The position numbers were made by a program, and so were the translations under genes. Below, piece after piece: positions 25 through 22,933 of a stretch of 26,345 nt of DNA (positions within the stretch are counted from its first letter, which is position 1; every line of letters begins with the position of its first letter). The notes beneath the pieces are model-generated. The model ran no database searches. It had not been told where the DNA came from and worked only from the letters and a program-made list of their open reading frames with translations. This stretch comes from a virus: positions 1 through 26,345 of IMG/VR virus record IMGVR_UViG_3300021139_000121; one strand, 5' to 3'.

Positions 25-1812
25 TTAAGCCTCATTTGTTGGTGTAGTTCCTCCGGCTGGTGGCGTAGCAGTAGGGGTAGTAGCTGTAGTAGGTGTAGTT
101 CCAGCAGTTGAAGTATTGGATTCGGTATCAGTAGAACTAGATGTACTATCTTCAGTAGAACTTTCTGGGGTAGATGAGGTATCAGAACTAGAACTAGAAG
201 AAGGCTCTCCACCATTACTACCAGAATCATCTCCTGTAGCAGAAGATCCAACTCCAGATAATGCAACCAATCCACCTTCTTCTTTTTCTTTCTTCTTATA
301 GGCTTCGTTTAGTTCCATATCTTTTGTAGATAATCCAAGATACCTATAAATTAAGAAGTCCTGGTCAAAGTGTGATTCTTCTACATCTCCTTTCTTTTCT
401 TTCAAATCACCAAGAGCAGTAATAAAATCTATACTCTTTAACATTTGTTCTATTTCTCTGGACTCACCAAAATAGTTATCAGAGTTAAATTTAATACCAA
501 GCTGAGATCTAAATACACTATCATCCTTTAAATCCGGATGGTCTAATGTCATTTGTATCCATAATGGTTTTATAATTATCTCCTGAAATATAGATCTAAT
601 CCTATTAATAAATTTACCATATCTTATTTCGTCCCTTTCTGCAGACTCTGCACCAACTTTATATGTACCAACTGCTCCTCCAGATCTTGCTGCAAATCTA
701 TTAAAAGGAATTTTAGAATCTAATTTTAGTTTATTAAAGAAATAACCAAGAACATCTATAACATTTAGATTTGGTCCTGTATTATTCATTGTTTCAATAG
801 TTGGTTGTTCGCCATTCATTACAGGGAATAGAAAGTTTTTATAAAACTGCAAATTTGGTCTACCATTTACTTCTAATTGACCTGTATCAGTATTAAATTT
901 AATATCTTCTTTATAGACATTCATTAATTCACCGAGTGTTTCTTTAGCTTTCTGTGGGGATCTAGTTCCAACTGGAATAGTCATTTTAAGTCTATATTGG
1001 GAATTCATTACGTTCCAAATTATACGGCTATGTTCCATAATCTTTAAAAGATTATGAGACCTAACTAATCTTTGTGTATAACTAATCCTAGACATAGTGT
1101 TTGATTTAGCATAGGAAATATAGATTACCTGCGAATCGTATAGTCTTCTTTGTCTAACTGTATCACCATAATACTGATACCATACTTGTGCCATTGTACC
1201 ATCTTCTTGCTTTTCTATAATTGGTGCTAATGACAATGGATCTAATTCTTTAAAACCAACGATCTTTTTGCCAGTGTCAGAATATACTATTTCAAAAGCT
1301 AAAAACCCATCTATTAAAAGTTGTTTAAAATATTGCCATGCAGAGGTACCATTAGTAAATCCATGAAGCATGTAAAGCTTCCTAAAGTTTTCACGGAGGT
1401 TCTTAAGAACCTCTTCTTTTAAATCCAATTGAAGAGTAGAAAGATAGCAGAAGAAGTTCTTATCATCATAAACTATTCCTTCATCTGTAACAATATCTAA
1501 TATCCATTCTATTTCTGCGTTTAATGCAAAAGACCTTAAAAATTCTCTCTGGAATGGTAAATCCTTATCATAATAGGCAATATATTTTCTATTAGATGTG
1601 TCCTGTGCAGCAAGGGAATAAATAAATTCTTCATCCTCCATACTAAATCCACTTCTTTCCCTCATACCGGCTTCAGTCATACCAATAGCCTGAGAATTTT
1701 TAATAACCATATCCTTATACTCCATTCCAAAGGAACCTATTCCTTTAACAACTTTTAGGATTCTTGATATTGCACTATTACCTTTTTGTGGATTGTCTAT
1801 AAAACCAGCCAT
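25..1812 (-). CDS. gp20: Portal protein, gp20-like (copy 2, more canonical)
   Basis: Portal vertex protein, 595 aa (T4 gp20 is about 524 aa). By family it forms the dodecameric ring through which DNA is packaged and to which the neck attaches. The core, residues about 25-510, has T4-portal-type stretches: RIIWNVMNSQYRL, SPQKAKETLGELMNVYKEDI, GRPNLQFYKNFLFP and KLKLDSKIPFNRF. The segment PTIETMNNTGPNLNVIDVL resembles the T4 gp20 segment at the same place better than the sister copy does, so this may be the ancestral-type portal. Residues about 515-595 are a Ser/Thr/Pro-rich, probably disordered tail. The ATG at 1812 lies 7 nt after the stop of the upstream portal paralog, so the two are very likely co-transcribed. 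The next gene downstream lies outside the window. Identity as a portal is strong; which copy builds the ring is not known from sequence. Confidence 0.93.
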   Translation of the reverse strand: MAGFIDNPQKGNSAISRILKVVKGIGSFGMEYKDMVIKNSQAIGMTEAGMRERSGFSMEDEEFIYSLAAQDTSNRKYIAYYDKDLPFQREFLRSFALNAEIEWILDIVTDEGIVYDDKNFFCYLSTLQLDLKEEVLKNLRENFRKLYMLHGFTNGTSAWQYFKQLLIDGFLAFEIVYSDTGKKIVGFKELDPLSLAPIIEKQEDGTMAQVWYQYYGDTVRQRRLYDSQVIYISYAKSNTMSRISYTQRLVRSHNLLKIMEHSRIIWNVMNSQYRLKMTIPVGTRSPQKAKETLGELMNVYKEDIKFNTDTGQLEVNGRPNLQFYKNFLFPVMNGEQPTIETMNNTGPNLNVIDVLGYFFNKLKLDSKIPFNRFAARSGGAVGTYKVGAESAERDEIRYGKFINRIRSIFQEIIIKPLWIQMTLDHPDLKDDSVFRSQLGIKFNSDNYFGESREIEQMLKSIDFITALGDLKEKKGDVEESHFDQDFLIYRYLGLSTKDMELNEAYKKKEKEEGGLVALSGVGSSATGDDSGSNGGEPSSSSSSDTSSTPESSTEDSTSSSTDTESNTSTAGTTPTTATTPTATPPAGGTTPTNEA

Positions 1813-1819
1813 ATTTTAG

Positions 1820-3583
1820 TTATTTATTTTTTGGTGTATTATCTTTTCCAGCTTCCCCGTTTTCAAATGATCCCCCGTCATCCACTGGTTTATTCTCTTC
1901 GGAGTTAGGATTATTATTTACAGGTTCGGTAGAAGTACTATCTGTTGGTTCTGTTGTTTCTGTAGTATCTTCTAACGAACCTTCTGTTTCTCCAGTTGTT
2001 GATCCCTCTGTACTAGAAGTATCTGTACCTGCTGTTTCTGCTGCCTTCTTTTTCCTTTCGTCTGTTTTCTTCTTAAACTTCAAATTAAGTGCCTTGTCTT
2101 CGTCTGTCATTGATAACCATCTATCAATAGCAAAATTCAAAGAGAAATAAGGATTACCATCAGAATCAATTAGACCTGCTATTTTAGCTACTTGATCTTT
2201 TCTTGATGCAAGTAAAGACTTATATTGATTTTCTGCAAAATCATTATCCTTATTATAATCTAAACCTAATTGACCTTTAATAAGCCAATCCTTCTGATGC
2301 TCTGGATAATCTAAACAAAATTGAACCCAAACTGGTTTAACTAAAATATCCTGAAAAATAGAACGTAATCTTGTTACAAATTTAAAGAATCTAATTTCTT
2401 CCTGATCAAGACCTTCTGCGTTTCCTGAATAAGTTCCAGATGTCCCTTTATCATCTCTATCAAATCTTGTATATGGAATTTTAGAGTCCAATTTTAATTT
2501 ATCAGAAAAGAATGCTAATGCCTTTACATCAGTAAATGCTGCTGCATCACCAGAACTACTTAATGGTTTAATATCAGGAGTTCCTAATGGAGTTTTGGGC
2601 ATTAGATAGTTCTTAAAAAACTGAAGATTTGGTCTACCATTAATAGATAGCTCCCCCGAATCTGAATTTAATCTAATATCCTCTTTATAGATACTCATCA
2701 ATTCACCCAATCTTTGTTTAGCTTTTTGAGGAGATTTAGTTCCAATTGGAACTGTCATGGTTAAACGATAACATGAATTCATTACGTTCCATATTATTCT
2801 TGTATGTTCCATAATACGAAGAAGATTAAATGACCTAATAAGTCTTTCTACATAACTAACCCTTGAAGTAGTATTACCTTTTGCGTAAGATAAGTAGATT
2901 ATCTGCGAGTCATATAATTTCCTAGTCATCTGTGGATTATCCGGATACTGAATATAAACTTCTACGAAACTTCCATCTGGCTGTTTTTCCGTAGATGGAA
3001 GTAACGAAGAAGGATCTAATTCCTTAAATCCAATAATATTTTTACCTTTATCATCGAAAATTATTTCAAATGCTAATATACCTTCTACCAGAAATCTTCT
3101 AAAGTAGTGCCATGCTGCAATATCCTGATTAAAACCAAATAGTGTATAAATTTCATTAAATCTATCATGTAATTTCTTTTCCTTTTCTGGCCCTATTCCT
3201 TCTATGTCACTATTATAAAGTCCCGCAAAGAAATTCATTTGATCATAAACTATACACTCATCACAAAGAGTATCCAAAATATATTCTATTTCAGGATTCA
3301 TAGAAAATTGACCAAGATATAATCTTTTGGATTTATAGTCCTTATCGAAATAGGCAATGTATTGTTTGCTTGTTGTATCCGATTTTCTTAATGAGTATAA
3401 GAAATTTTCATCTTCTATTCCACCTTTCTGTAGAAACATAGCTTCGGTAACACCGACAGATTGTGAGTTTTTCACAACCATATCACCATAATACATTCCA
3501 AAAGATCCAATTCTTTTTAGTCCGTCGAGCGCTTTTTTAAAGAAGGTAGTACTACCACCTCCTTGATCTGTAAATCCTGCCAT
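1820..3583 (-). CDS. gp20: Portal protein paralog, gp20-like (copy 1)
   Basis: Second portal-family protein, 587 aa, encoded directly upstream of the other copy. The two align over essentially their whole length: both start MAGF and share IGSFGM, DMV.KNSQ, RIIWNVMNS, SPQKAK..LGELM..YKEDI, NGRPNLQF and KLKLDSKIP. By eye roughly half of core residues match. This copy differs in the segment after GRPNLQFFKNYLMP (TPLGTPDIKPLSSSG..). Its tail, residues about 510-587, is also acidic and Ser/Thr-rich but diverged. The ATG at 3583 overlaps the stop of the upstream gene as TAATG, implying translational coupling. T4 has a single portal gene, so this is a tandem duplication with both copies kept intact. 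It could form a mixed ring, a second connector ring, or replace the other copy in some virions; these are inferences. Confidence 0.92.
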   Translation of the reverse strand: MAGFTDQGGGSTTFFKKALDGLKRIGSFGMYYGDMVVKNSQSVGVTEAMFLQKGGIEDENFLYSLRKSDTTSKQYIAYFDKDYKSKRLYLGQFSMNPEIEYILDTLCDECIVYDQMNFFAGLYNSDIEGIGPEKEKKLHDRFNEIYTLFGFNQDIAAWHYFRRFLVEGILAFEIIFDDKGKNIIGFKELDPSSLLPSTEKQPDGSFVEVYIQYPDNPQMTRKLYDSQIIYLSYAKGNTTSRVSYVERLIRSFNLLRIMEHTRIIWNVMNSCYRLTMTVPIGTKSPQKAKQRLGELMSIYKEDIRLNSDSGELSINGRPNLQFFKNYLMPKTPLGTPDIKPLSSSGDAAAFTDVKALAFFSDKLKLDSKIPYTRFDRDDKGTSGTYSGNAEGLDQEEIRFFKFVTRLRSIFQDILVKPVWVQFCLDYPEHQKDWLIKGQLGLDYNKDNDFAENQYKSLLASRKDQVAKIAGLIDSDGNPYFSLNFAIDRWLSMTDEDKALNLKFKKKTDERKKKAAETAGTDTSSTEGSTTGETEGSLEDTTETTEPTDSTSTEPVNNNPNSEENKPVDDGGSFENGEAGKDNTPKNK

Positions 3584-4167
3584 TATTTGAATTTGTTATA
3601 TATTTCCTCAATATTAGCACCCTCTATAGATTTTGTATTTAGATAAATCATATTATGCCAATCAGTAATAGGGATCTCTTTTAAATTTTGAATACTCTCC
3701 ATTCTAAAGCCGGTATATGAATGATTATAGTTGATACCACCGAATAATGTTTCCAAAAGTTCTTCCGTAAATAATAAAGGCATTTGTGCATTAGGAATAT
3801 CGTTCTCTACCTTTTCCTGGTTTATTTCTATAGGTTTTTGATAGATGTTAGTAAATCTTATTATGAACCTTAAACGGTCCATTGGGGGGAGCAGCATTAA
3901 ATCTATACCCCTTAGTATTCTTTTTCCTTGTATGGGTTTATCTGATACAATAAATAGAAGAGGCCTTCTATTTATAAATCCATTTTCCTGTTTATATTTA
4001 GAATTATAATAAAAGGTAAAGAGTTTTCCTGCTATAAGTTTATTAGTGTTTTCAGAATTAGCAACTTTGGCATATTTTTCTCCATAGTTATCAAAGGACT
4101 TTTTCGATAGATTTCCTATTGACCCTGCTTCTGTTAAAGCCTCTTCATATATTTTTTTAAAGTCCAT
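3583..4167 (-). CDS. Conserved phage protein of unknown function between gp4-like nuclease and portals
   Basis: 194-aa protein that I do not recognise with confidence. The N-terminus is MDFKKIYEEALTEAGS. The centre, about residues 48-110, reads as a compact domain: GKLFTFYYNSKYK, then RPLLFIV, then GIDLMLLPPMDRLRFI. It resembles a short phage-protein pattern (K.F.F.Y....K......PL......G..L..LP...R) that I associate with T4-like virion or packaging genes. I cannot name the family. No signal peptide or membrane segment is evident. Its ATG overlaps the stop of the gp4-like gene (TAATG at 4169-4165), and its own stop overlaps the portal start in the same way, so the three are probably translationally coupled. 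A head-assembly role is inferred from this position only. Confidence 0.72.
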   Translation of the reverse strand: MDFKKIYEEALTEAGSIGNLSKKSFDNYGEKYAKVANSENTNKLIAGKLFTFYYNSKYKQENGFINRRPLLFIVSDKPIQGKRILRGIDLMLLPPMDRLRFIIRFTNIYQKPIEINQEKVENDIPNAQMPLLFTEELLETLFGGINYNHSYTGFRMESIQNLKEIPITDWHNMIYLNTKSIEGANIEEIYNKFK

Positions 4168-4661
4168 TATCCAAATACAAATGATTCATCTATAGTACCA
4201 AATTGATATCCTATCGATTCCGCAAATTTCTTTGCCGCCTCAAACTTACATCTATTTATAATCCAAACAGATAATTTATCGTTATAGGCTTTTAGTTTCT
4301 TTTCTGTTACTTTACCGGTTATTACTGGCTTACATTCTAATGCGTATTGGTGTCTCGGTTTTACTTCCAATATCCAATCTTTTGTAGTACCATCCTTTTG
4401 TAATACCTTTACATAATAATCCGGATGGTATCTGTGCATCTTTTTATCAATGGGGCTCCAATACTCTATCGATAGAGGCTCGGAGCTCCATTTTACAATA
4501 TTCTGGTTTAAATCACAGTATTGGCAAAATCTAAATTCCCAAGAGGACCTAAATATGATAGAGTCTATATCCCCAATATATTTGTCTATATTGGATGGTC
4601 TATATTTACCATTTAGATATTTCTCACTTGCTTTTAGTTTTTTTATATCCTGCCGATCCAT
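4167..4661 (-). CDS. gp4: Head completion nuclease, gp4-like
   Basis: 164 aa, close to T4 gp4 (about 150 aa), a head-completion protein with a PD-(D/E)XK, TnsA-like nuclease fold that acts on filled heads before tail joining. Visible conserved segments are RSSWEFRFCQYCDLN (residues 38-52, with E42), W58-S-S-E, the block HRYHPDYYVK with D81, and the catalytic-type pair E99-V-K101. The E...D...ExK arrangement is intact, so nuclease activity is plausible. The ATG at 4661 is 2 nt after the stop of the gp55-like sigma factor. The gene overlaps the next one at TAATG. It sits immediately upstream of the portal genes, consistent with a head-assembly transcription unit. I am fairly sure of the family. 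Confidence 0.85.
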   Translation of the reverse strand: MDRQDIKKLKASEKYLNGKYRPSNIDKYIGDIDSIIFRSSWEFRFCQYCDLNQNIVKWSSEPLSIEYWSPIDKKMHRYHPDYYVKVLQKDGTTKDWILEVKPRHQYALECKPVITGKVTEKKLKAYNDKLSVWIINRCKFEAAKKFAESIGYQFGTIDESFVFG

Positions 4662-4663
4662 AG

Positions 4664-5020
4664 TTATACATTATAATTCTCGTTATCTTCTCTTACTATC
4701 CTGGAAAAAGCTATAGTTTTAACGGACCTTAAGGAATGTATCTTTTTCCAACCCTTCTGCATACCATTTTTAGCAATCTGGGATATGAAAGCAAATGGAT
4801 TATCAGACTTGTTAGGATTATATCTATTCCAATACTTAATTAAATCCTCCATGCCAAATGCCTGACAATCCTCTTTGTCTTGCGGATCACGATAAGGAAA
4901 TGTTTTAGATAGGCCAGCAACAATCAGGGTAAACATCTTAATAGTCTCTGGTGTTAATCTATTGTTGTCCCTAGATTCCAGTAGTGCTCTTTTTAGATCT
5001 TTGTTCTTTACGTATTCCAT
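4664..5020 (-). CDS. gp55: gp55-like late-transcription sigma factor
   Basis: 118 aa. It resembles the N-terminal two thirds of T4 gp55 (185 aa), the sigma factor that directs host RNA polymerase to late promoters. Shared features are the start YVKNKDL..AL, the block MFTLIVAGLSKTFPYRDP, a middle helix DLIKYWNRYNPNKSDNPFAFISQI, and the basic end KNGMQKGWKKIH. The N-P-F-A-F-I-S-Q stretch followed by a basic helix corresponds to sigma region 2, which binds core polymerase and the -10 element. It is shorter than T4 gp55 and shows no region 4. T4 gp55 also lacks a typical region 4 and works with gp33 and the clamp gp45. It is first in the sigma-gp4-portal unit, downstream of a hairpin-rich gap. 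A different, ECF-type sigma factor is encoded at 11936-12583. Confidence 0.75.
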   Translation of the reverse strand: MEYVKNKDLKRALLESRDNNRLTPETIKMFTLIVAGLSKTFPYRDPQDKEDCQAFGMEDLIKYWNRYNPNKSDNPFAFISQIAKNGMQKGWKKIHSLRSVKTIAFSRIVREDNENYNV

Positions 5021-5061
5021 CTTAAGATATGAATTATTTTGTTAGCCTCTTAGCGAGTACT

Positions 5062-5085
5062 AAAAAAGACCTTGTAAAGGGCCTT
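5062..5085 (-). terminator. Possible rho-independent terminator 2 after the 848-aa gene
   Basis: On the minus strand the sequence folds as AAGGCC, an 8-nt loop, then GGTCTT (one G-U pair), running straight into a T-tract (plus-strand A run at 5062-5067). It lies between the 848-aa gene and the gp55-like gene. The 6-bp stem is short but the U-tract is good. It probably backs up the stronger hairpin at 5143-5171. Confidence 0.5.
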
Positions 5086-5088
5086 CAA

Positions 5089-5104
5089 CTCTCTTTTTAG
5101 AGAG
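5089..5104. other. Perfect 6-bp inverted repeat in the gap
   Basis: CTCTCT, four T, AGAGAG. It has no U-tract on the minus strand side, so it is less likely to be an independent terminator there. It is the middle of three hairpins in the 170-nt gap at 5021-5190. It could stabilise the mRNA 3' end or be coincidental. Confidence 0.4.
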
Positions 5105-5135
5105 CTAATTAATATAAGTTTCCAAACCTTCCTAA

Positions 5136-5171
5136 AAAGAATAAGACCTTGCTATATAATAGCAAGGTCTT
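5136..5171 (-). terminator. Rho-independent terminator after the 848-aa gene
   Basis: A perfect 12-bp stem (AAGACCTTGCTA and TAGCAAGGTCTT) with a 5-nt loop at 5155-5159. On the minus strand it is followed by ATTCTTTTTA. It begins 19 nt past the stop of the 848-aa gene. This is the strongest hairpin in the gap and marks the end of the 10089-5191 unit. Confidence 0.8.
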
Positions 5172-5190
5172 TAACTAAATTTTTATAAAA

Positions 5191-7737
5191 TTACTTACCC
5201 TTTTTAACTTTACCATTCAACATTTTTAATGTGTTACCCTTTGTTGCTCCCTTCATACCAGGAGGGGTAGATAGATTAGAATTTTTCAAATTGTTGTGAA
5301 AAGGCTTACCATTATGTTTGGTTGATCCTGGAATTTTAGCCATATTAGAATCAGATGCTTTTTCTATAAATTTCTTACCTGCTGGTGCACTCTTACCAGG
5401 TGCTACTGCTAATGGTGCATTTTTTTGCTCCTTACCTTCGGTTAATTTGTTTTTTACCGAACCTGCAGATGTTCCAGATGGTTTATTAACAACTTTCTTT
5501 TTTTCACCTTTTGGTAATTCACCCAATTTCATGTTCTTAGTGTTATCAATATCCTTAGATGCTGTTTTTGCTTTTCCCTTAGGAAGTTTTGCTAGGTTCA
5601 TTGCTGACTCCTTGTTGATATCTTTTGCACCACCTTTAGCATTACCCCCCGGCATTTTAGCCATGTTGTTGTCTTCTTTACTAGTTCCCTTTACTTCTTT
5701 CGTTGCTGCTTTTCCTGCTCCACCTTTAAACCCTAAAATATTTGCCATATTAGATTTTCCTTGTAAACCAGTAGGTCCTTCAGTTTTTCCACTTGCTTCC
5801 TTAAATTTTAAAGTAGCCAGATTCATATTCTTTTCGTTCTCAATATCCTTTGCCCCCTTTTTACCACCAGTCATTTTATCTTTACCTCCAATTTCCTTAG
5901 ATGTAAATGTACCAGCAGATGTTCCAGAAGGCTTGTTAACAACCTTTTCCGTGTCTTTGTCTAATACGTTTGAAAGGTTCATGTTTTTCAAATTGTCTAT
6001 ATCTGCCCCTTCTACTACTGGATTAATATCAACTTTTTCGATTTCGTCAGCTACATTTATAACATCACTAAAGAAATATTCACCACTACCACCCTTTTCG
6101 GTCATAACGGTATAAGTTTTAGAATTACTATTAATTCCTATAATTGTTCCTTTTACACCATTCCTCTTAATCTTAATTGCTGTGTCAATACCATAAGTAC
6201 CTCTTTCGTTAATTTCGATTTTCTTAGATCCTTTTTCAAACCTTTCGATTTCTACATTAATTTCATTCCAACGAGATTTTAGTATTTCAGATTCATTGGC
6301 AAGCATTTCTTTTGCTGCCAATATTTCTGGTGCATTAGCAACCATTGGATTACCCTTAATAAGACCTTCTATTTTAAATAATTCGCCTTCAACTATTTTC
6401 ATGTTGTCTGCTATAGTCTTCTTATCATTATACATTATAGATTTTACCCTAGTTTCGCCATCTAAGAATTCACTTAGTGACTCAGAAATATCAAAACCAA
6501 TAAATTCCTTAACTAAATTAACTGTTTGGTTACCATTAGCTTCGAATAATTCGTTCTTCTTCATGCCAGGATTAACTCTCTGTACGTAGATTTTCTTACC
6601 AACTTTGAAAAGGTTAGCTTCTACACCTTCGTATACCTTAGATTTAATAGATTTTGCAAAATCCAATTCTGCTAATTCATCAGAATACTTAACCATATTC
6701 ATTACCCTTTCAACAATAGGAGCAGAATTACCAAAATAATTCCTAAATTCTATAGAAAGAGTAGTTCCAAGTGATTCTAATGGCATATTTCTGCCATTTA
6801 AATAAACATTCTTTTCTCCATTTTCAAATACTACAGATACTTTAGTTCTCGGTGCAACAAAATCAACACCATTTTCTGTAATCTTTATGTCCTGTCCCCT
6901 TAAGGAAGATACAGAATTAAGAAATCTACCAGGTAGTTTAGATACTTCGTTCTTTTCCATAATTGATAATTTGCCATTACCAATTTTTAAAAATCTTCCT
7001 CCAACTGCATGAATAGTATAACTTTCTGCTACCATGCTGGGTGCAATAATTCTTTTAACTTCGCAGTTAGAATTATCAGACTTAATAGTTAATTTAGTAG
7101 CAGATTTAGATTCTAAAAGAGAAATGTTATTAATTAAACCCTTAATAGCAGGAGTAAATGCCCATTTCTTCATTTCGAATAGAAGTGTCTCAGAAACCCT
7201 ATTAGGTGACATTAACCATTCTGTTAATGATTCGGATAGACCAGAAAAAAGTTCTCTCCCCCCAGAATTTCTAAGGTCTGCTATAGTCTTTAAAACTAGA
7301 ATCTCTCTTACATTAGCTTCATAAACCTTTTCAAGGTTATCTAAAGTAGCTTTTGCATTTGTTTCCCAAGAAAAATTAGAAAGGTCCCTAAGGAAGCTTT
7401 CGAATAAATAAACCTCAGGTATACCCTTAATGTTTAAATCATTCATATATCTTTCCAACATTATTTTACCTTCTGGTAAATCGTATAGGGAAGTATTTCT
7501 TAATGCGAGAATAGTGTGATTTAGACCTAAAGAGTAAAAACCTTTCTTAGGTGCCTCTGTACTACCATCTGACTCATTAAGAATTGCTTTTTTAATCCCG
7601 TCTACATAAGAGCCGGCATTAGTAGATTTTCTATTACTATCTAATCCTCTCCAGTTTTCGTTCAAAGATTGAGCTATATCCTTAGCCTTATCCATAGCTA
7701 ATTTTGAAAGTTTCTCTTCGTAATTCATTTTTTCCAT
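5191..7737 (-). CDS. Large protein with a basic, repeat-rich C-terminal tail; unknown function
   Basis: 848 aa, not recognised. Residues 1-570 look folded: a helical N-terminus (about 1-210), mixed alpha/beta to about 400, helices about 405-500, and a small beta module around 505-560 (GVKGTIIGINSNSKTYTVM). From 579 to the end it is Lys/Gly/Asn-rich and probably disordered, with about eight degenerate copies of a motif like D-I-x-N-x-x-N-M-x-L-x-x-L-P-K-G. A 12-residue string, KVVNKPSGTSAG, occurs exactly twice (598-609 and 748-759). The basic tail could bind DNA or dock repeatedly to one partner, as scaffold or internal head proteins do; that is inference. The ATG at 7737 follows an AT-rich leader, with a second in-frame ATG three codons on. 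It is the last gene before strong terminators. Confidence 0.85.
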   Translation of the reverse strand: MEKMNYEEKLSKLAMDKAKDIAQSLNENWRGLDSNRKSTNAGSYVDGIKKAILNESDGSTEAPKKGFYSLGLNHTILALRNTSLYDLPEGKIMLERYMNDLNIKGIPEVYLFESFLRDLSNFSWETNAKATLDNLEKVYEANVREILVLKTIADLRNSGGRELFSGLSESLTEWLMSPNRVSETLLFEMKKWAFTPAIKGLINNISLLESKSATKLTIKSDNSNCEVKRIIAPSMVAESYTIHAVGGRFLKIGNGKLSIMEKNEVSKLPGRFLNSVSSLRGQDIKITENGVDFVAPRTKVSVVFENGEKNVYLNGRNMPLESLGTTLSIEFRNYFGNSAPIVERVMNMVKYSDELAELDFAKSIKSKVYEGVEANLFKVGKKIYVQRVNPGMKKNELFEANGNQTVNLVKEFIGFDISESLSEFLDGETRVKSIMYNDKKTIADNMKIVEGELFKIEGLIKGNPMVANAPEILAAKEMLANESEILKSRWNEINVEIERFEKGSKKIEINERGTYGIDTAIKIKRNGVKGTIIGINSNSKTYTVMTEKGGSGEYFFSDVINVADEIEKVDINPVVEGADIDNLKNMNLSNVLDKDTEKVVNKPSGTSAGTFTSKEIGGKDKMTGGKKGAKDIENEKNMNLATLKFKEASGKTEGPTGLQGKSNMANILGFKGGAGKAATKEVKGTSKEDNNMAKMPGGNAKGGAKDINKESAMNLAKLPKGKAKTASKDIDNTKNMKLGELPKGEKKKVVNKPSGTSAGSVKNKLTEGKEQKNAPLAVAPGKSAPAGKKFIEKASDSNMAKIPGSTKHNGKPFHNNLKNSNLSTPPGMKGATKGNTLKMLNGKVKKGK
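5248..6003 (-). repeat. Array of about eight short protein-motif repeats (848-aa gene, residues 579-830)
   Basis: In-frame degenerate repeats encode NM/NL-centred motifs: DIDNLKNMNLSNVL (579), DIENEKNMNLATLK (631), KSNMANILGFKGG (661), DNNMAKMPGGNAKGG (689), DINKESAMNLAKLPKG (706), DIDNTKNMKLGELPKG (729), SNMAKIPGS (797) and LKNSNLSTPPGMKG (817). Spacing is irregular, about 17-70 residues. The KVVNKPSGTSAG stretch is duplicated at DNA positions 5461-5496 and 5911-5946 with many synonymous differences, so the protein rather than the DNA appears to be conserved. Confidence 0.8.
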
Positions 7738-7766
7738 TTTATGGGGGAGTTTTATTTTACTTGATC

Positions 7767-7776
7767 TATATATCCG
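7767..7776 (-). promoter_or_regulatory. Candidate promoter motif CGGATATATA before the 848-aa gene
   Basis: Minus-strand CGGATATATA, 29 nt before the ATG at 7737. The same 10-mer occurs before the sheath gene (21050-21059), and near matches lie at other gene boundaries. It may be a phage -10 element read by one of the two encoded sigma factors. The gap 7738-7837 also holds a weak hairpin on the minus strand (AAGGG...CCCTT). Confidence 0.35.
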
Positions 7777-7837
7777 TTTTATCCTGGATTTTAAAGGGCA
7801 TCAAATATATACCCCTTATTCTAATTTTTTATTCTAT

Positions 7838-8398
7838 TTAATAGTCCCTAGGATCTGCAGTTGTTGTATTATTTGCATCTATTCCAGAATCATCTACTAC
7901 CTTAGTTGCTATAATAATATCCAAATCTACATAATTAGAATGTGGATTATAAATTACAATACCACCAGTTGAAAAATAAGGACTAGTAAACTCACTATTT
8001 CCTGGTGCTACTATTACTCCACGTCCACCTGTTGCGCCTGGATTACCTGTCCAAATATGTAATTCTCCTATGGGATAAGTATTTCCCAAATATTTAAGAT
8101 CTATATATTTATCAGCATAGGAAGTAAAAGTAGTGGGATATGTAACCTTTATTAAGAGAAAACTAACCTCACCAAATGAATTTCCAAGACCTGCATCATC
8201 CAACAAGAATGCGCCCATTGGCTTTAATCTGGTATGTTGTGTAAAAAAATCATCTATGTCCATAGAGAAATTACAAAAGCTCATCGAATTTATTAAGGAT
8301 GAGTCCTGGGTAATTAATAAAGTACATCTGTCAAAATATGTTCTTTCTATTAGACTATTCGCTATATCAGCTGCACATACTAGTGGTGGTGTTGCCAT
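7838..8398 (-). CDS. 186-aa tandem paralog B, probable virion beta protein
   Basis: 186 aa, function not recognised. It is clearly related to the gene just upstream, which has the same length: a central block ending in DKYIDLKYLGNTYPIGELHIWTG matches DRYITINYKGSVFVCGPLMFLTG, and FTSPYFSTGGIVIYNPHSN matches ITSPDFTLGGMLIYNPTIG. Alternating hydrophobic residues suggest an all-beta fold. The C-terminus carries an extra Asp/Thr/Asn-rich tail (about residues 168-186). No signal peptide or membrane helix is evident. The start overlaps the stop of the upstream copy as TAATG at 8398, so the pair is probably translated in a coupled way. A decoration or adsorption role is possible but rests only on fold impression and context. 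Confidence 0.78.
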   Translation of the reverse strand: MATPPLVCAADIANSLIERTYFDRCTLLITQDSSLINSMSFCNFSMDIDDFFTQHTRLKPMGAFLLDDAGLGNSFGEVSFLLIKVTYPTTFTSYADKYIDLKYLGNTYPIGELHIWTGNPGATGGRGVIVAPGNSEFTSPYFSTGGIVIYNPHSNYVDLDIIIATKVVDDSGIDANNTTTADPRDY

Positions 8399-8958
8399 TA
8401 ATTCATAACTAATATTTGTACCTCTACTTCACCTATTGTAGGATTGTATATTAACATACCTCCAAGGGTAAAGTCCGGTGATGTTATATTTGGGTCTATC
8501 TGTGGGCTAAAATGTATTGGAGGTGCAGACATATTATATGGTTCTAAATCCCATCCATGCCATACCTGTGTGTCCTCCGTTGTACCGGTTAAAAACATAA
8601 GGGGGCCACATACAAATACACTACCCTTATAATTAATTGTTATGTAGCGATCCTCGATAGGAATTGATTTATCATAATTTACCTGTACCACAATCATTCC
8701 TACTTCTCCCTGTTCCTGTGCTATGTTACCCCCAAATAAGGTATAGGTCCCCCCAGTTGGGATATAGTAGCTTTTCTTAAAGCTTCCCCCATTCTCTGAA
8801 CCAAATTGTCCAAAACTACAAAGGTCTAATCCATATAAGGTACTACTACCAGAGATGATTTTTAATGTACATCCTTCGAAGATTATTTTCTTTTGTTTCT
8901 GTGGATTACAATCAAAACCCTGTATTAAGGTTTTATCTGTTGAAAGTACGTTCGGCAT
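8398..8958 (-). CDS. 186-aa tandem paralog A, probable virion beta protein
   Basis: 186 aa, function not recognised. It is the upstream member of a tandem paralog pair. The shared C-terminal half contains VGMIVVQVNYDKS, the DRYITINYKGSVFVCGP block and GGMLIYNPTIGEVEVQILV; the N-terminal halves are more diverged, though both have a CTL.I element near residue 30. It is Gly- and beta-strand-rich with no helices evident. The ATG follows the stop of the membrane protein gene with no gap (8959/8958), so the two are co-transcribed. It may be a head or tail surface protein; nothing in the sequence decides this. Confidence 0.78.
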   Translation of the reverse strand: MPNVLSTDKTLIQGFDCNPQKQKKIIFEGCTLKIISGSSTLYGLDLCSFGQFGSENGGSFKKSYYIPTGGTYTLFGGNIAQEQGEVGMIVVQVNYDKSIPIEDRYITINYKGSVFVCGPLMFLTGTTEDTQVWHGWDLEPYNMSAPPIHFSPQIDPNITSPDFTLGGMLIYNPTIGEVEVQILVMN

Positions 8959-10089
8959 TTATCTTAAATTAGTTGGGTCTGTATGTGGTATATATTGAAC
9001 TTCTGTATGATTATCACTAATATTTTTGTTTTCTAGCGGCATTTCTATTACTATATCATTATTAGGTGTCTCTTTAATACCTTCTATTGGTATTGGTAAT
9101 TCTTCTTCTTCGTCCTGTTCTGGTTCTGGATCTTGATCTATAACTTCAAATGGTAAATCCCTGTTATCAGCCGGCTCAAATTCCCAAAGAAAGTCAGGAA
9201 TTTCTTCTCCCCCTTTCATAGGGTCTTCTTCTATCGATTTTTCCTCAATATCTTTATCATCTGGTGTATGCGCAACGGCAGTTCTTTTGCTGTTCTTTGC
9301 ACTTAAAAGAAAATTCAATGCTATCACTAAGGACACTGCTAATGGATCAAAAACAAGCATTAAGGCTATGATGAACCAGTTAACAACCTGATCTAAAGAT
9401 TTACCTGTTAACTTAGCAATATATTTTAATGGGCCTACTTCTTTGGCCACATCTTGATTGGTTTGGAGAGATAAAGATTGGAGATCTAGTTCTTTTAATT
9501 TTTCATTTTTGGAACTCAAGCTATCATTTAGAACTTTTACCTCATTATCCAATTTTGTAATTTCCTGATCTATAGAAATCATTTGTGACTTTATACTATG
9601 AGTGGACATATTTTTTGCAATCAAATTGTCCATGGTTCCCTGTTGTTTAGCTTTAATATCACTTAATGAATTAATCCTATTATCCTTTAATGATATTTGG
9701 GACTCATATCTTTTTGCATCAGATTGAACTATAAGTTTTTGTTTATCTAATGCACCATTTTGTTTATCTAAAACTTCTACCTTATTAGAAGTTTCTTGGT
9801 AAGCTGCCGAAAGGAATCCGTAAATACCCGCAGAAGTAATAAGTATTAATATACAACAAGCAATGGTTAGGTAAGTTCTTAAAATTTTGTTTAATTTGCT
9901 CCAATAACTATACAAGAGAGATGCAATTACCAATTTGGAAAATTCAAGACTTCCAGCCATTATCATAACATTTGTGGATGCTCCAGCAAACATTTTACTT
10001 ATACCATATACGGAATAATAGGCAGCGGAACCAGAAACAGAAAATGCTGCCAGAGCAACAATCCATGGAAATATTCTACTATTTTTCAT
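8959..10089 (-). CDS. Multi-pass membrane protein with central coiled coil and acidic tail
   Basis: 376 aa. Three hydrophobic segments stand near the N-terminus (about residues 8-30, 38-60 and 71-96). A long predicted coiled coil follows (about 100-205, rich in K/L/S/N/D with IDQEITKLDNEVKVLNDSLSSK), then a fourth hydrophobic segment (about 233-262, WFIIALMLVFDPLAVSLVIALNF), then a highly acidic cytosol-type tail with a poly-Glu run (EQDEEEELPIP). It most likely sits in the host inner membrane. I do not recognise a holin, spanin or superinfection-exclusion family, though any of these could fit. The gene follows directly after a strong terminator, with GGGATATATA only 6 nt before its ATG. It therefore probably begins a transcription unit running through to the 848-aa gene. 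Confidence 0.85.
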   Translation of the reverse strand: MKNSRIFPWIVALAAFSVSGSAAYYSVYGISKMFAGASTNVMIMAGSLEFSKLVIASLLYSYWSKLNKILRTYLTIACCILILITSAGIYGFLSAAYQETSNKVEVLDKQNGALDKQKLIVQSDAKRYESQISLKDNRINSLSDIKAKQQGTMDNLIAKNMSTHSIKSQMISIDQEITKLDNEVKVLNDSLSSKNEKLKELDLQSLSLQTNQDVAKEVGPLKYIAKLTGKSLDQVVNWFIIALMLVFDPLAVSLVIALNFLLSAKNSKRTAVAHTPDDKDIEEKSIEEDPMKGGEEIPDFLWEFEPADNRDLPFEVIDQDPEPEQDEEEELPIPIEGIKETPNNDIVIEMPLENKNISDNHTEVQYIPHTDPTNLR

Positions 10090-10095
10090 ATGTTT

Positions 10096-10106
10096 TATAT
10101 ATCCCC
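10096..10106 (-). promoter_or_regulatory. Candidate promoter motif GGGATATATA before the membrane protein gene
   Basis: Minus-strand GGGATATATA lies between the terminator at 10110-10140 and the ATG at 10089. Position just after a terminator supports a promoter. With only 6 nt to the ATG, a start site at normal -10 spacing would give a leaderless or nearly leaderless mRNA. Confidence 0.4.
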
Positions 10107-10109
10107 ACT

Positions 10110-10140
10110 AAAAAACTCCCCAATTTATTAGGGAGTTTCT
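10110..10140 (-). terminator. Rho-independent terminator after the 175-aa gene
   Basis: A perfect 8-bp stem AAACTCCC / GGGAGTTT with a 10-nt loop (arms at 10113-10120 and 10131-10138). On the minus strand the T residues continue as a 6-T run. It lies 24 nt past the stop at 10165 and closes the 13276-10165 unit. Confidence 0.85.
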
Positions 10141-16520: not shown

Positions 16521-17102
16521 TTAGTTGAAAATATCTTCGAACCAGTCTGCTCTTAGATCCATTGTAATTTGATAAAGCTTATCTCCTGCATCATAAGAAA
16601 GTGGCATTGCAGTTATTGCTTCTACCGGGAATACATTATGTAACTTAATTTGTCTGAATACATCACCTTCTTTGTTGAAGATGTTAATAAGCATATAGGT
16701 ACCATTTGCATAAGTACTCTTTATACCCATTGCACCAGTTAATGGATTGTATACAAGGTCGGACCATTGCCTAAGTGTTTTAAATACGTAGTTAGATCCA
16801 TTATCATCCAAGTTAGTTTCAAATACCATTTTAAGTCTAATACCGGTATCTTCCACTGCTGGGCCTGCATATCTCCTGAAAGAGAATTTATAGTGTTGCT
16901 CAACTGGTTTGTTTGGTGTCTTATCTACACTTAAACCTGTCATAGATAAAAGATTTTCAACCAATAGAGTCCTACCACTATTTCCCGCAGGGTTAAATAC
17001 TGCTGGAGGTGGTTGCAAAATAACCTCGAACTGATTTAAATAAATCGGTTCATATAGTGCTACAGCTGCTTTAGCTGAATTAAAATGTGATAGTCCTGCC
17101 AT
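16521..17102 (-). CDS. gp19: Tail tube protein, gp19-like (copy 2)
   Basis: 193 aa (T4 gp19 is 163 aa). By family it polymerises into hexameric rings forming the inner tube inside the sheath. It shares with its upstream neighbour the start MAGLSH, YEPI.LNQFEV, L..TGLSVDK, FKTLRQWSDLVYNPLTGAMG, FNKEGDVFRQI and an ending with an aromatic D-W/Y-x-x-D-I motif (ADWFEDIFN). By eye about 45 percent of residues match. The ATG at 17102 follows an A/T leader with AAATAAAATAAAA and no Shine-Dalgarno, 13 nt after copy 1. A strong terminator follows. One copy may be the main tube and the other a minor ring at the baseplate or neck; the sequence does not say which. Confidence 0.9.
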   Translation of the reverse strand: MAGLSHFNSAKAAVALYEPIYLNQFEVILQPPPAVFNPAGNSGRTLLVENLLSMTGLSVDKTPNKPVEQHYKFSFRRYAGPAVEDTGIRLKMVFETNLDDNGSNYVFKTLRQWSDLVYNPLTGAMGIKSTYANGTYMLINIFNKEGDVFRQIKLHNVFPVEAITAMPLSYDAGDKLYQITMDLRADWFEDIFN

Positions 17103-17115: not shown

Positions 17116-17694
17116 TTAAACCCAAATATCGTCCCAATAATCTACTGCCCATTTCATCCTTATCTTATAAATGTTTGTAGCGCCATTTATATAATTCAAA
17201 TCCATTTCTTTAATGGCTAGCATTGGGAAAGCATCCTTACAAGTGATTTGTCTAAATACATCACCTGCTTTATTAAAAGCCTTAATTACAATAGTACCAG
17301 TATAGTCTTTCTTAAGGCCCATACCACCTGTTAGTGGATTGTATATTAAATCTGACCATTGCCTAAGAACCTTAAAAGCATACATGGAATTATTAATATC
17401 CAAGTTTATTTCAAATTCAATTTCTAAATCTATAAATGTATTAGTCGGTGCAGCTCCAGAGTAGTACCTTTTAGCATTCTTGTACTTCTGCGTTACTTCA
17501 CCAGGGTTTTTATCTACGCCCAAGCCAGAGAGACTAATAACCTGTTCCAGCATGATATTACCATTACCTGGATTACCAGCTGGAACCGGTATAGCAGCCG
17601 GAGGTGTTATAAGAACCTCGAACTGGTTTAAGAATATAGGTTCATACTTTAAAGTAGAAGCCTTTGATGTTGAATAATGTGATAGTCCTGCCAT
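17116..17694 (-). CDS. gp19: Tail tube protein, gp19-like (copy 1)
   Basis: 192 aa, immediately downstream of the sheath gene as T4 gene 19 follows gene 18. Conserved tube features are MAGLSHYSTSKAS, YEPIFLNQFEVLITPP, SLSGLGVDKNPG, FKVLRQWSDLIYNPLTGGMGLK, FNKAGDVFRQITCKDAFP and the ending DYWDDIWV. The loop IPVPAGNPGNGN is longer than in T4. The position next to the sheath makes this the likelier main tube protein, which is inference. The leader carries GAATATATA 7 nt before the ATG and no Shine-Dalgarno. It forms a tandem paralog pair with the following gene and is probably co-transcribed with it. Confidence 0.92.
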   Translation of the reverse strand: MAGLSHYSTSKASTLKYEPIFLNQFEVLITPPAAIPVPAGNPGNGNIMLEQVISLSGLGVDKNPGEVTQKYKNAKRYYSGAAPTNTFIDLEIEFEINLDINNSMYAFKVLRQWSDLIYNPLTGGMGLKKDYTGTIVIKAFNKAGDVFRQITCKDAFPMLAIKEMDLNYINGATNIYKIRMKWAVDYWDDIWV

Positions 17695-17732: not shown

Positions 17733-20700
17733 TTACCCAAACTGTATGAATCCACCAGAATTAATACCACCAGTTCTTGTTACTGTTACTCTGTTGATAA
17801 ATTTCTGTATCCCCCTTGCAGGTTCAATGATAACATCTATAATACCCAAGTTTTGGTCGATAATTGCAGGGGTATTGTTAGAAGAATCCATAATTGTTAG
17901 GTAGTTATAGATACCACCTACATTTTCTACTCCACTTAAGAAGTTATCTACGAGGGTCTTAATTTCTAGCCTAACTGAATCTTCATTAAAATCAAACACA
18001 TAATTTGATAGTATACTTTCGATATTAGTTTCAAGGGTGATCAATAGGTCTCTAACATGCAAGTTATTGAATGCACTATTAGTTCTTTGATAGTTTGTTT
18101 GGTTACCATAAATTACTATACCTATACCTCTCCTTCTGATAATAGGATTAATACCAAACGGTTCAAGATAATCCCTATCAGTTTGGGTGAAATCATACTC
18201 TAGACCAACAACATTAGATCCAGATATAATACCCCTTTTCTGTCCTGCTACGATTGCATAAGGTTCACCAGTCACAAATTTTCTAATGAAATTGTTACTT
18301 ACATGAGCTGCAGGAGGTATATTTATATTTTTGTTGTTCTCCCTAATTGTTAAGAATGGAGAAAATGTACCTGCAAACTTAGCTCCATTATCTTCATCAG
18401 GAAGTGTAAATTCAAATGAAGGATTAAGAGATAGGTTACCACCAGATGCAACATAGCTAGCATTAAATAAAGGTGCTGGATTACTTGCAGTAGTAGCATC
18501 AGTAAATCTAGGATCAGTAGATGCCATAAATTTAGCGATAGAAGGAGCATTTATAATAGCTAAACATTTCTGCCTCTGCATAGCAAGTGTAGAAAGCTGG
18601 TATTTAGAATTAGTTTTAATTTGGCCATCAAAAGTATCTACTACATACCTAAAGGTAATAATATTAGGATCTGAAAGAGAAGTAGCAATGTTAGTTGTGT
18701 ATAGAACATTTAATATATTGTCTATCTGAGCATCACTACCATCTGGTTTGTGATAAGGTTTTAAATTAAATCCTGGTAGATATGTGAACTGATAGTTTTG
18801 TACGAACTGCTCAATTGCAATGAATTTCTTTACCATTAATGGTGTGCCAGGGAATAACATAATAGGCCTATCTGTTGTTACATATATTGTGTAAATACCA
18901 GGACTACCAGTAGGAACCCTATTAACTTTTGTAATCCTTGTAAGCCTATTTTGGGACGGTATAAAAAGATCAGTATCTGTCGATACTAATAAATTACCTA
19001 CCGCGATACCACTTGTAGTTGCGACATCACTACTTAATTGTATCTGTGTAGAAGAGATAGAAGACATTATACCAATTTCTTGGTTTAAATTACCAGATAA
19101 TGATATAACTGCGATTTGATTTCCACCAACAGTATCACTAGCACCAGTAGCCATTGTAGTAAATGTATTTCCTAAGGTTGGAATTACTGCTAGGGTGGTT
19201 AAATCCGCATCGCTATAACCAATCATTGTTATAGTTAAGAACGTATCCCTATCTACAGAAGTGGTTAATCCGATATATTGTTTACTATTTCCTAACCAAT
19301 CCATATAAATAACGGCCCCGTTTGTTATTACTCCTCTTTCATAATTTTGATAGATTAAGGAAGATTCATAACCAACATACTGGTAATGTCCAGAAGAAGG
19401 ATTTTGGCGATTGAAATAATCAGATAAACCAAACTGGTATCTAGTGGAGTTTATATTAGTATCTGCATAAGGAGCAACCAAAGGATTTGCGGATGTATAT
19501 AATGGGTGGGACCACCTAATTCTCAATTGAGGATTTCCTCCAACTACTACGGTTGATACACTTTCAACCTTTAATTTTACTAAGTCATAACTATTGAAAG
19601 ATGCAAGTGCTATTGTATTACCAGTTAAATTACCTGCTTGTCCGAGAATATAAGTTGGGCCTGGATTACTTATCGTAGAAGTTAAGAATGTTTGTAATGC
19701 TGCTAATAAATCTGCTGCACCACCACCAGTTGCATTAGTTTGTAGATATGGTAATCCACTATCCAACGATGCTGGATTATAAGCAGCAAAACTACTAGTA
19801 TTTATACCAGTAATAGAGCTGTATATAAATAAAGTTCCTGCCTCATTAAGAGTACTACCAGGAGATACTGCATCAAATAGAGAAGTAACATTCTGATTGT
19901 ATACTAAATCAGAGAATAATGGGGTGTTATAGCTCAAAAAATCTATATTAGGATTAGATACAGTTGGATTATTATTTTCTAAAGAATCTATAAGATGGTG
20001 TCCAACAAGGTCAATTAAACTATAATCACCAGTAGCAAGATCATCTAATGCTTGGTCATTAACTGCGCAAAGAATACCAGTTTGCCCAACTTGATTATTA
20101 ACCAACACTTTAATATCCTGGTTAATACCATTAAGATCAACAAAATCCGGAATAAAGCATCCTGTTACTGATAAAAGTACATTAACATTAGTTAGGGCTA
20201 AGAAATTATCTATTTGTTCCTTTATGAACCCTTTGTTTGTAAAATAAGTAGAGTATAAAGGATCCAATGAAAGAGTAGAATAATCTGTCCAATTACCACT
20301 AATTACAATAACATCAAGAAAGTAATCCGAAATATAATCATAAGGGTGTAGAAAAGATGGTACATTATTAGCTCCATAATATTCCTGTGCACTTATATCA
20401 AATCCTCTGATTGGAATAGTAGCATCTAATGATTTTTTTATTATAACACTTACTGGATTTTGGCTAAGGTTAACAAAACTGAATAATTTAGTACTATCTC
20501 CATTAGTTGTATCCATTGTAGCAATTAAAGCAAGAGGATCAGGAAACCAGAATTTTTGCTTATTGTAATAGGAAGAAAGAAGTTTATCCTCTTTAGATAA
20601 GTAAGTATTTACAGTTGCATAATCGGATGTTGGATTTTGTCCATTTATTTGTGCAGTATCTACAGAAAATGCCCTATACCTAGCAACATCTGCACCATTT

Positions 20701-21032
20701 GCAACATCAGGAGTTCCAGCATCAGTAGTAGCATCATTTAATCTTAATAGATTTACGACAAAAATAGGACCAGTATTTAAACAAGTAAATATTGACCTAT
20801 GAAAAAAAGATCCTTTCTTTTCTAAAGAACGATCTATATCACCAAAGACCGACAATGCAGTTTGTGGATCTGGTAGATACACTGCAGTGTTAAAAGGTCC
20901 AACGTTAGAGTATCCAACAACCAATCTTATTGTCTGCGGGTTCAGTATTATATTCTGAGAAGCGTCGAACTCCAAGGTGTATACCCCTGAACTTTTGAAT
21001 ACAGAAAGATCTAATGTTATTTTTTGTGCCAT
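17733..21032 (-). CDS. gp18: Tail sheath protein, gp18-like, greatly enlarged
   Basis: 1099 aa, against 659 in T4 gp18. By family it forms the contractile sheath around the tube. The N-terminal sheath domain is seen at residues about 30-100 (NPQTIRLVVGYSNVGPFNTAVY and GPIFVVNLLRLND). The polymerisation core lies at the C-terminus, about 915-1099 (KFVTGEPYAIVAGQKRGII, DRDYLEPFGINPIIRRRGIGIVIYGNQT, HVRDLLITLETNIESIL and a last strand INRVTVTRTGG). Residues about 430-800 are Gly/Thr/Ser/Ala-rich, strand-forming and seem to be extra domains on the outside. Examples are VGGNPQLRIRWSHPLY (497-512), NQIAVISLSGNLNQEIGIMSS (638-658) and a stretch at 660-740. The ATG at 21032 lies downstream of CGGATATATA and an A-rich leader. 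It sits between terminase and tube as in T4. Confidence 0.93.
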   Translation of the reverse strand: MAQKITLDLSVFKSSGVYTLEFDASQNIILNPQTIRLVVGYSNVGPFNTAVYLPDPQTALSVFGDIDRSLEKKGSFFHRSIFTCLNTGPIFVVNLLRLNDATTDAGTPDVANGADVARYRAFSVDTAQINGQNPTSDYATVNTYLSKEDKLLSSYYNKQKFWFPDPLALIATMDTTNGDSTKLFSFVNLSQNPVSVIIKKSLDATIPIRGFDISAQEYYGANNVPSFLHPYDYISDYFLDVIVISGNWTDYSTLSLDPLYSTYFTNKGFIKEQIDNFLALTNVNVLLSVTGCFIPDFVDLNGINQDIKVLVNNQVGQTGILCAVNDQALDDLATGDYSLIDLVGHHLIDSLENNNPTVSNPNIDFLSYNTPLFSDLVYNQNVTSLFDAVSPGSTLNEAGTLFIYSSITGINTSSFAAYNPASLDSGLPYLQTNATGGGAADLLAALQTFLTSTISNPGPTYILGQAGNLTGNTIALASFNSYDLVKLKVESVSTVVVGGNPQLRIRWSHPLYTSANPLVAPYADTNINSTRYQFGLSDYFNRQNPSSGHYQYVGYESSLIYQNYERGVITNGAVIYMDWLGNSKQYIGLTTSVDRDTFLTITMIGYSDADLTTLAVIPTLGNTFTTMATGASDTVGGNQIAVISLSGNLNQEIGIMSSISSTQIQLSSDVATTSGIAVGNLLVSTDTDLFIPSQNRLTRITKVNRVPTGSPGIYTIYVTTDRPIMLFPGTPLMVKKFIAIEQFVQNYQFTYLPGFNLKPYHKPDGSDAQIDNILNVLYTTNIATSLSDPNIITFRYVVDTFDGQIKTNSKYQLSTLAMQRQKCLAIINAPSIAKFMASTDPRFTDATTASNPAPLFNASYVASGGNLSLNPSFEFTLPDEDNGAKFAGTFSPFLTIRENNKNINIPPAAHVSNNFIRKFVTGEPYAIVAGQKRGIISGSNVVGLEYDFTQTDRDYLEPFGINPIIRRRGIGIVIYGNQTNYQRTNSAFNNLHVRDLLITLETNIESILSNYVFDFNEDSVRLEIKTLVDNFLSGVENVGGIYNYLTIMDSSNNTPAIIDQNLGIIDVIIEPARGIQKFINRVTVTRTGGINSGGFIQFG

Positions 21033-21115: not shown

Positions 21116-22933
21116 CTAAAAATATTCCTTGAATATGTTCCACGTTTCCCCTTCGTAATCTTTAGAGGTTCCACCACCTCCTGCATTAATCTCTTCCATC
21201 TTTTTATCGATAGCATCTCTAAATTTTTGTGGAATTGTATCATAAACTTCCTGCACCAATTGATTAAAATCAGTATAATCGAATACAGAATTGGCAATAA
21301 CATATGTCATGGCTATATCATCTTTACCACTTTGGCTAGAATAATTACCCTTGGTATTTTCACCAAAATCACTCAATTCTAAAATTCCTATTTTATCAGT
21401 TGGTATAATTCTACCGCTCCTACAATTGACTTTTAATAATTCACAGCACCTTTCTTTGGTTGCCGGGGTCATTTTTATACCAGTTTTCATTTGTTTTGAA
21501 CTTTCATAGTGTTTAGTAAAAACAAACATTTCATCGAATACTTTATCCCCGTTTAAAAGCTTTTCTATAAGCTGTTCCCCTTTAAAATCGACTTCTACTG
21601 CTATTTTAACAGTTTCTGGATTTAAGACCTGAGTTGTCAAAACTTCCATAAAAGGCTTAAATTCCTCTGGTGACATGGTATTAGATCTAAACATACCAAC
21701 TTGTAGCAGACAGAAAAAATCTGATTCATCCTCGTAAAATTTCTTATCCTGTATTAAATTTAATGGTAAAGGAGAAACTTTTAATATATTTGCTACTGTA
21801 TAATCACCACCAACACCCGCAGAAGTATCTACTGCTACCACAAATCTTTTCTCCTCATCACTTTCCCATAGTGATGTTGGATCAAATAGCGGATGCCATT
21901 TTAGTTCATCGTAATTTATTGTTGTATTGGCAAATGGCATTAATCCCCGATGTACAAAATTAACCTCTGTCTTTTTTAACCTTTTTAAAGTAAAAGAATC
22001 TAATAAAAGTCTGGAAGAGCTTAAAAATTGATTACCATATTCCTGATTAAAGTCTTCCTCTGATCCAAGATTAGCTATTTCTTTTATTTTCCATGCTTCA
22101 TCTCTTCCAGGTACCTGCCACCAATCTACTCTAATTGGATTAAAGCTATTCTTTCCCGCAAGGGCATCCGTATAAATGTCATAGAATTTATTTGTTCCAT
22201 TAGGGGTTGATGTTATAATAATTCTGGATATCAGAGAAGCGGCCACAGTAGGGAATACTGATTTAAAGAAAGATCCTATAAAATTTGGATTAATATGGGC
22301 AAACTCATCCATATATAAAAAGTGAACAGTAAAACCGATAGATGATGATTTAGTAGTAGTCTTTGCCATTACCCTACATCCATTATCAAATTTCATTGTC
22401 ATCACATTATATACACTAATTCCAGGTTTCATGAAGAATGGTAATTTCTTCATGATAGTTTTGATTTTATCCATCAATTCAGCCGATGTATCTCCAATAT
22501 TTGCAAGGATCATCGCATTTTTTTCGGAGTTAAATAGTAAATACCACAAAAGGAAGATGGAGGACGTAATAGTTTTACCACTCTGCCTAGGGCTTAGAAA
22601 GATATTAAATCTATTATTTTGATATTGTCTTAAAATTTGTTCTTGATAATCCCTTAATGTAACCTGAATAATACCATCATCTGTCATTACATGGCAATAG
22701 TTATTAGCAAAATATATTACATCATTTGCGCATTTATCCATTTCCATTCTTTCCCACCCCGTTAATTCAAAAAGAACCTGACCTTTTTTTAATTCCGGAT
22801 CATTTTCATGGAAGGGATTATCCATAGATTTAAAATCTAGGCCTTCCTCGTCTGCTCTCTTCATTATACTGTTAACCTTTGCGGTTGTCCAGTAATTACT
22901 TGTTTTTTCTTGTACTAATGTTTCTGTTGCCAT
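21116..22933 (-). CDS. gp17: Terminase large subunit, gp17-like
   Basis: 605 aa, close to T4 gp17 (610 aa). It is the motor ATPase and headful nuclease of DNA packaging. ATPase: Walker A SPRQSGKT (114-121), Walker B FLYMDE with D209/E210, and coupling motif TSTPNGT (241-247). RNase-H-type nuclease: D369 in VVAVDTSAG, E447 in IAVEVDF and D538/D539 in GKDDIAM. All catalytic residues appear intact. The N-terminus (about 1-90) contains FELTGWERMEMDKCANDVIYFANNYC, typical of the T4 family. A Gly run (INAGGGGTS) occurs near the C-terminus. The start ATG at 22933 is 6 nt after the probable small terminase gene. Identification is very secure. Confidence 0.97.
   Translation of the reverse strand: MATETLVQEKTSNYWTTAKVNSIMKRADEEGLDFKSMDNPFHENDPELKKGQVLFELTGWERMEMDKCANDVIYFANNYCHVMTDDGIIQVTLRDYQEQILRQYQNNRFNIFLSPRQSGKTITSSIFLLWYLLFNSEKNAMILANIGDTSAELMDKIKTIMKKLPFFMKPGISVYNVMTMKFDNGCRVMAKTTTKSSSIGFTVHFLYMDEFAHINPNFIGSFFKSVFPTVAASLISRIIITSTPNGTNKFYDIYTDALAGKNSFNPIRVDWWQVPGRDEAWKIKEIANLGSEEDFNQEYGNQFLSSSRLLLDSFTLKRLKKTEVNFVHRGLMPFANTTINYDELKWHPLFDPTSLWESDEEKRFVVAVDTSAGVGGDYTVANILKVSPLPLNLIQDKKFYEDESDFFCLLQVGMFRSNTMSPEEFKPFMEVLTTQVLNPETVKIAVEVDFKGEQLIEKLLNGDKVFDEMFVFTKHYESSKQMKTGIKMTPATKERCCELLKVNCRSGRIIPTDKIGILELSDFGENTKGNYSSQSGKDDIAMTYVIANSVFDYTDFNQLVQEVYDTIPQKFRDAIDKKMEEINAGGGGTSKDYEGETWNIFKEYF

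Follow-up and report, generated by a model that had tools for sequence, protein, structure and literature searches.

What does a phage do with two portal genes? To our knowledge, every portal known so far, the gate by which DNA passes into and out of the phage head, is a dodecamer of one protein, and genomes usually carry a single portal gene, although this habit is not strictly defining. The window analysed here, which is the whole 26,345-nucleotide stretch of the IMG/VR virus record IMGVR_UViG_3300021139_000121, breaks this habit without any effect on the homology itself: two adjoining, intact genes for T4-type portals, here called A and B, lie on its minus strand.

Two T4-type portal genes in one morphogenesis locus

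An initial annotation made from the letters of the window described two adjacent full-length gp20-type genes of 595 and 587 amino acids, and its coordinates and lengths proved exact (Table 1). Both proteins start with MAGF, both score far over the curated cut-off of the Pfam family PF07230 (Portal_T4; 22.9 bits), and the profile match to T4 gp20 (PF07230; PDB 3ja7, 6uzc, 9mkb) runs over almost the whole core (E ~5e-24). By BLASTP the two are 48% identical over 505 amino acids (E 1e-174). The AlphaFold models of the A and B monomers are poor (pLDDT 56 and 58, TM ~0.3); their order of secondary-structure elements fits a portal, and the best Foldseek matches of the low-confidence B model are T4 gp20 (E 3e-14). 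A and B are thus T4-type portals, and the new element is the two-gene arrangement.

Table 1 Features of the window discussed in the text
Feature	Coordinates	Strand	Details
Portal copy B	25..1812	-	595 aa, downstream; PF07230 201.8 bits; PHROG 213
B tail	25..306	-	~residues 503-595
B inner clip loop and channel loop	757..843	-	residues 324-352; outgroup-like GPNLN
B clip core	844..999	-	residues 272-323
A-B junction	1813..1819	-	TAA, 7 nt (ctaaaat), ATG
Portal copy A	1820..3583	-	587 aa, upstream in transcription; PF07230 188.8 bits; PHROG 213
A tail	1820..2083	-	~residues 501-587
A inner clip loop and channel loop	2525..2617	-	residues 323-353; two-residue insertion adjoins
A clip core	2618..2773	-	residues 271-322, common to B
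T4 gp2-like DNA end protector	3583..4167	-	PHROG 429, 1.2e-08
T4 gp4-like head closure / nuclease	4167..4661	-	PHROG 218, 5e-41; PF08722
Late sigma factor (gp55-like)	4664..5020	-	PHROG 234, 6e-13
Tail tube copy T2	16521..17102	-	PHROG 45 tail tube; 50% identical to T1
Tail tube copy T1	17116..17694	-	PHROG 3629 tail tube
Tail sheath	17733..21032	-	single; PHROG 34521, 1.5e-109
Large terminase	21116..22933	-	single; PHROG 5989/2

The surroundings fit a T4-type portal as well. Genes for gp2-like and gp4-like proteins, a late sigma factor, terminase, sheath and tube all lie within the window, and the gp2-, gp4- and gp55-like neighbours recall the gp20 locus of T4. Transcription runs from the gp2-like gene through A to B. 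A begins with an ATG that overlaps the stop codon of the gp2-like gene, and the junction between A and B measures 2-11 nt in relatives, with a TAA stop in nearly all of them; because of this short junction and the overlap at the start of A, coupled translation of A and B is likely. Many relatives have A and B in phase across the short gap, and there the two are reported as one joint frame of ~1,090-1,104 codons. Readthrough or fusion was nevertheless rejected, since TAA stands nearly everywhere and some gaps are out of frame. On the 3' side of B, the overlapping contig L001 carries ORFs that by eye resemble a ligase, a clamp loader, a kinase and an exonuclease, and no further head genes were recognised there.

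Several other features of the window were observed in passing. At 1,099 aa, the tail sheath is unusually long. Another tandem pair, at 7838-8398 and 8398-8958, encodes 186-aa proteins that are 24% identical and have no family match; a 219-kb relative carries orthologs of both. An 848-aa protein (5191-7737), also conserved in that relative, repeats an NMNLAKLPKG-like motif in its C-terminal part and matches no informative family, and a 742-aa protein (24115-26343) has an ortholog there with a weak match to PF11649, the family of the T4 neck protein. In the 219-kb relative itself (L269), four related proteins, each 389-519 aa long, are clustered at 4503-11494; three of them were scanned, and all three match radical-SAM families.

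An ancient pair, kept together across a clade

Peptide-pattern scans of IMG/VR returned 80 loci with B and 80 with A, and each portal ORF in them was classified. On related environmental contigs, a complete A with room downstream is directly followed by B in 117 of 118 cases, and a B with room upstream is directly preceded by A in 120 of 120, counts that are not independent since all loci go back to one duplication and many contigs are near-identical (the distinct sequences number 55 for A and 61 for B). The gene order is always A then B, and the sole A not followed by B appears to be that of L160, whose A frame is broken. Exactly two portal genes were found in each of ten long relatives, including the 219-kb contig, and two likewise in 13 of 13 clade records examined for this; single-copy relatives have one full copy. 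Being clade-wide, the tandem pair is beyond chance. In most relatives the orthologs of A are ~61-74% identical to it and those of B ~61-72%; the A of the closest relative, L121, reaches 94%.

Outside the clade we find single portals. Matching with B located a T4-type portal in 2,087 phage-collection records, at 2,089 places, and no tandem portal pair among them. A second matching place occurs in just two of them, LR756501 and LR756503, and that of LR756501 is a fragment of 101 aa rather than another gene. The portal-like fragment in LR756501.1, the record of L084, lies at 15166-15351 on the minus strand within the 101-aa frame, far from the full portal of this 735-kb phage. The nearest named relatives, LR756500 (462 kb), LR756501-4, Lak and Sphingomonas phage PAU, have portals ~28-45% identical to those of the window, and each has one full portal gene, as well as one tail tube where tested. 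In IMG/VR two neighbouring clades were sampled, and a single portal occurs in 56 of 56 loci of the clade around LR756501-4 (counting those with at least 1.8 kb on each side) and in 47 of 47 of the clade around LR756500, together 103 of 103 loci with good flanks, and likewise in Lak-B1 and PAU. A host search in bacterial genome contigs and plasmids gave no match. The accessible portions of the papers on bS21 phages (PMC9723584) and moraphages (PMC12619734) describe phages that are likewise freshwater and large, with predicted Bacteroidota hosts and some related to Lak; the bS21-phage abstract uses the wording 'portal vertex proteins' (PMC9723584), and these portions report no paired portals. 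The same holds for the accessible parts of the huge-phage and gut huge-phage papers, and a search of the accessible main texts for duplicated, tandem or hetero-oligomeric portals returned nothing relevant.

In a tree with single-copy outgroups, A (UFBoot 97), B (100) and A plus B (100) each form a clade, FastTree agrees, and the A and B subtrees are congruent, with the same main splits. Because each copy is monophyletic, a single duplication before the radiation of the clade explains the pair. A recent duplication or an assembly artefact is ruled out by the 48% identity together with the clade-wide conservation. Among matched ortholog pairs, the median pairwise dN/dS is 0.026 for A and 0.025 for B, rough values given that synonymous distances often exceed 1, and both alike and far below 1, which rules out a pseudogene or a relaxed copy. 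A and B are under equal and strong purifying selection (dN/dS ~0.025). The suggestion that both copies look functional is therefore strongly supported: they are intact, equally constrained and kept together, with no relaxed selection on either and neither absent from close relatives, the two outcomes that had been named as speaking against it. Paired portals are present in a group of huge phages, and both copies are ancient and equally well kept.

The portal is not the only pair in these genomes: the tail-tube gene, which the initial annotation passed over in this respect, is paired in the same way. Both tube genes, T1 and T2, occur in all nine long clade members in which this region is complete; the tenth (G012) has one truncated tube copy at its contig edge. 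A lone tube gene was seen in each of the 12 single-portal relatives tested. T1 and T2 separate into two moderately supported clades. Clade members tested for the major capsid protein have one copy of it, and self-comparison of the 219-kb relative revealed neither a second terminase nor a second sheath. In this clade, two ring proteins along the path of the DNA are thus both paired, which may be a coincidence, as this is one clade. There is precedent for tube paralogues that divide positions between them; in T4 gp23/gp24 and gp19/gp54 and in eCIS tube pairs such as Afp1/Afp5, the copies of a virion protein sit at different positions.

A shared clip core, divergent lumen loops and tails

Taking domain limits from Sun et al. 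2015 (PMC4493910) and an alignment with T4 gp20, we asked where the copies agree. The shared motifs quoted in the initial annotation are present (RIIWNVMNS, A262-270; SPQKAK, A284-289; GRPNLQF, A316-322), and on T4 gp20 they map, in this order, to the end of stem helix 5, to the clip tip and to the clip sheet. In the clip core A and B are 70% identical, while each shares ~44% identity with LR756500, a relative that has one copy. For the wing, helix 8 and the N-arm, the identity between A and B is close to that between either and the outgroup. The clip core is therefore unusually well kept between A and B. By the T4 alignment, this common core comprises the subunit sheet and the terminase-docking tip: PQKAK, conserved in A and B, aligns with T4 clip-tip residues N291-K296, which dock terminase and whose mutation abolishes packaging (PMC4493910). 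Recent gene conversion was rejected as the cause of the likeness, since A-B identity is the same within a genome as across genomes.

The clear difference that had been noted past GRPNLQF corresponds to the inner clip loop and channel loop. The differing tails are unrelated sequences rich in S, T, E and P. The aligned core holds 41 fixed A/B differences, and 11 of these lie in the clip and channel loops, a span of 31 residues where 2.5 would be expected (nominal P 8e-6, the boundaries having been drawn after the sites were known). The channel loop of B, GPNLN, resembles the GHNLN or GPELS of the outgroups; that of A is rewritten and has two extra residues. In T4 the inner clip and channel loops touch DNA (PMC4493910), and A and B thus differ in loops predicted to face it.

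At the C-terminus, the strict form EF[KT][LI]-COOH ends 46 of 55 distinct A sequences and none of 61 B sequences. The A of the window lacks it, ending in PKNK, as does the A of its closest relative, L121. In the single-copy clade around LR756501-4, the protein ends in EFEF or something close to it at 76 of 81 loci. Read most simply, the tails point to a putative C-terminal docking peptide that A retained and B has lost, with a polarity that is uncertain because the second single-copy clade, around LR756500, ends in LA[GD]I or DLGI. A general C-terminal targeting peptide was rejected, the strict motif ending just one other protein of the 219-kb relative. In L043, L046, L047 and L050, the A and B tails both end in GGDMGTI, which suggests local tail exchange between the copies.

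A possible mixed ring, or two uses for the portal

How might both copies be used? Most likely, and at about even odds in our judgement, A and B co-assemble into one mixed dodecamer at a single portal vertex. The paralogous subunits go back to one duplication in the ancestor of the clade, and since A and B seem to share the surfaces that touch the neighbouring subunit and the terminase, either copy could take the same place in the ring. The ring, perhaps of six A and six B, would now need both, because just B has the outgroup-like channel loop and just A the EFx(hydrophobic) tail. Complementary loss without any advantage would suffice, as proposed for the fungal V-ATPase proteolipid ring, another case in which a duplicated ring-subunit gene was kept (cited in PMC11066126); there the mixed ring is demonstrated, whereas for A and B we infer it. 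T4 itself has one portal gene and a homo-dodecamer, in contrast to the two conserved paralogues of this clade. The mixed ring is favoured because the clip core stays alike while the lumen loops and tail diverge in complementary ways, and it accounts for the strict pairing, the equal constraint, the kept clip core and the complementary divergence. Among the options first offered (a mixed ring, two stacked rings, or specialisation for packaging and neck docking) it fits best; the split between packaging and neck docking is disfavoured, as the clip tip PQKAK, aligned with the terminase-docking residues of T4, is conserved in both copies.

The alike clip core would be equally expected if A and B formed two separate homomeric rings, in A-heads and B-heads or stacked, that gate DNA differently and have their terminase and neck contacts in common. 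Each copy appears to retain the full set of portal elements, including the clip tip, and their lumen loops differ in fixed ways, as such rings would allow. However, the strict adjacency in one operon with a short junction offers no obvious switch between copies, T4 heads have one portal vertex (PMC4493910), and neither the terminase nor the major capsid gene was seen in a second copy. We regard separate rings as unlikely, holding perhaps a fifth of the weight or slightly more. A little less probable still is that just one of the two serves as portal while its partner has taken up a new job, as a scaffold or membrane initiator shed early, a neck adaptor or an ejected protein. The fixed lumen-loop differences and the tail motif only on A would suit such a change, and gp23 and gp24 of T4 are a precedent for the reuse of a paralogue; yet equal dN/dS and an alike clip core and terminase-facing tip are unexpected for a freed copy.

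Two further ideas have very little in their favour. Redundancy, with interchangeable copies kept for more portal, suits adjoining genes of the same fold, but it is highly improbable at just 48% identity with copy-specific differences fixed throughout the clade, and supplying twelve subunits to each head takes no extra dose. Portals are sensed by some Avs proteins. Escape from host sensors of structural proteins by duplicating and varying portal and tail tube, precisely the duplicated genes here, recalls the recognition of the tail tube by DSR2 (PMC10981675), but is the least credible reading of all, as a second copy is an added target and not a hidden one, and the slow evolution of both copies shows no sign of an arms race.

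Returning to the mixed ring, a wider and more tentative extension, which we consider possible with somewhat worse than even chances, is that the whole DNA conduit consists of paralogue pairs, with an obligately mixed A/B portal ring leading into a tail tube of two kinds of subunit, in which case this would be the first heteromeric portal.

The 12-fold/6-fold and 12-fold/5-fold mismatches at the portal vertex are long-standing problems of the packaging mechanism. In a conserved natural two-gene portal, evolution has already separated individual lumen-loop roles, and the pair is a place to test the growth of ring complexity by complementary loss. For huge phages, the pair would also show that the portal is not a safe single-copy marker, and in this clade the DNA gate of the head may be built from two kinds of part.
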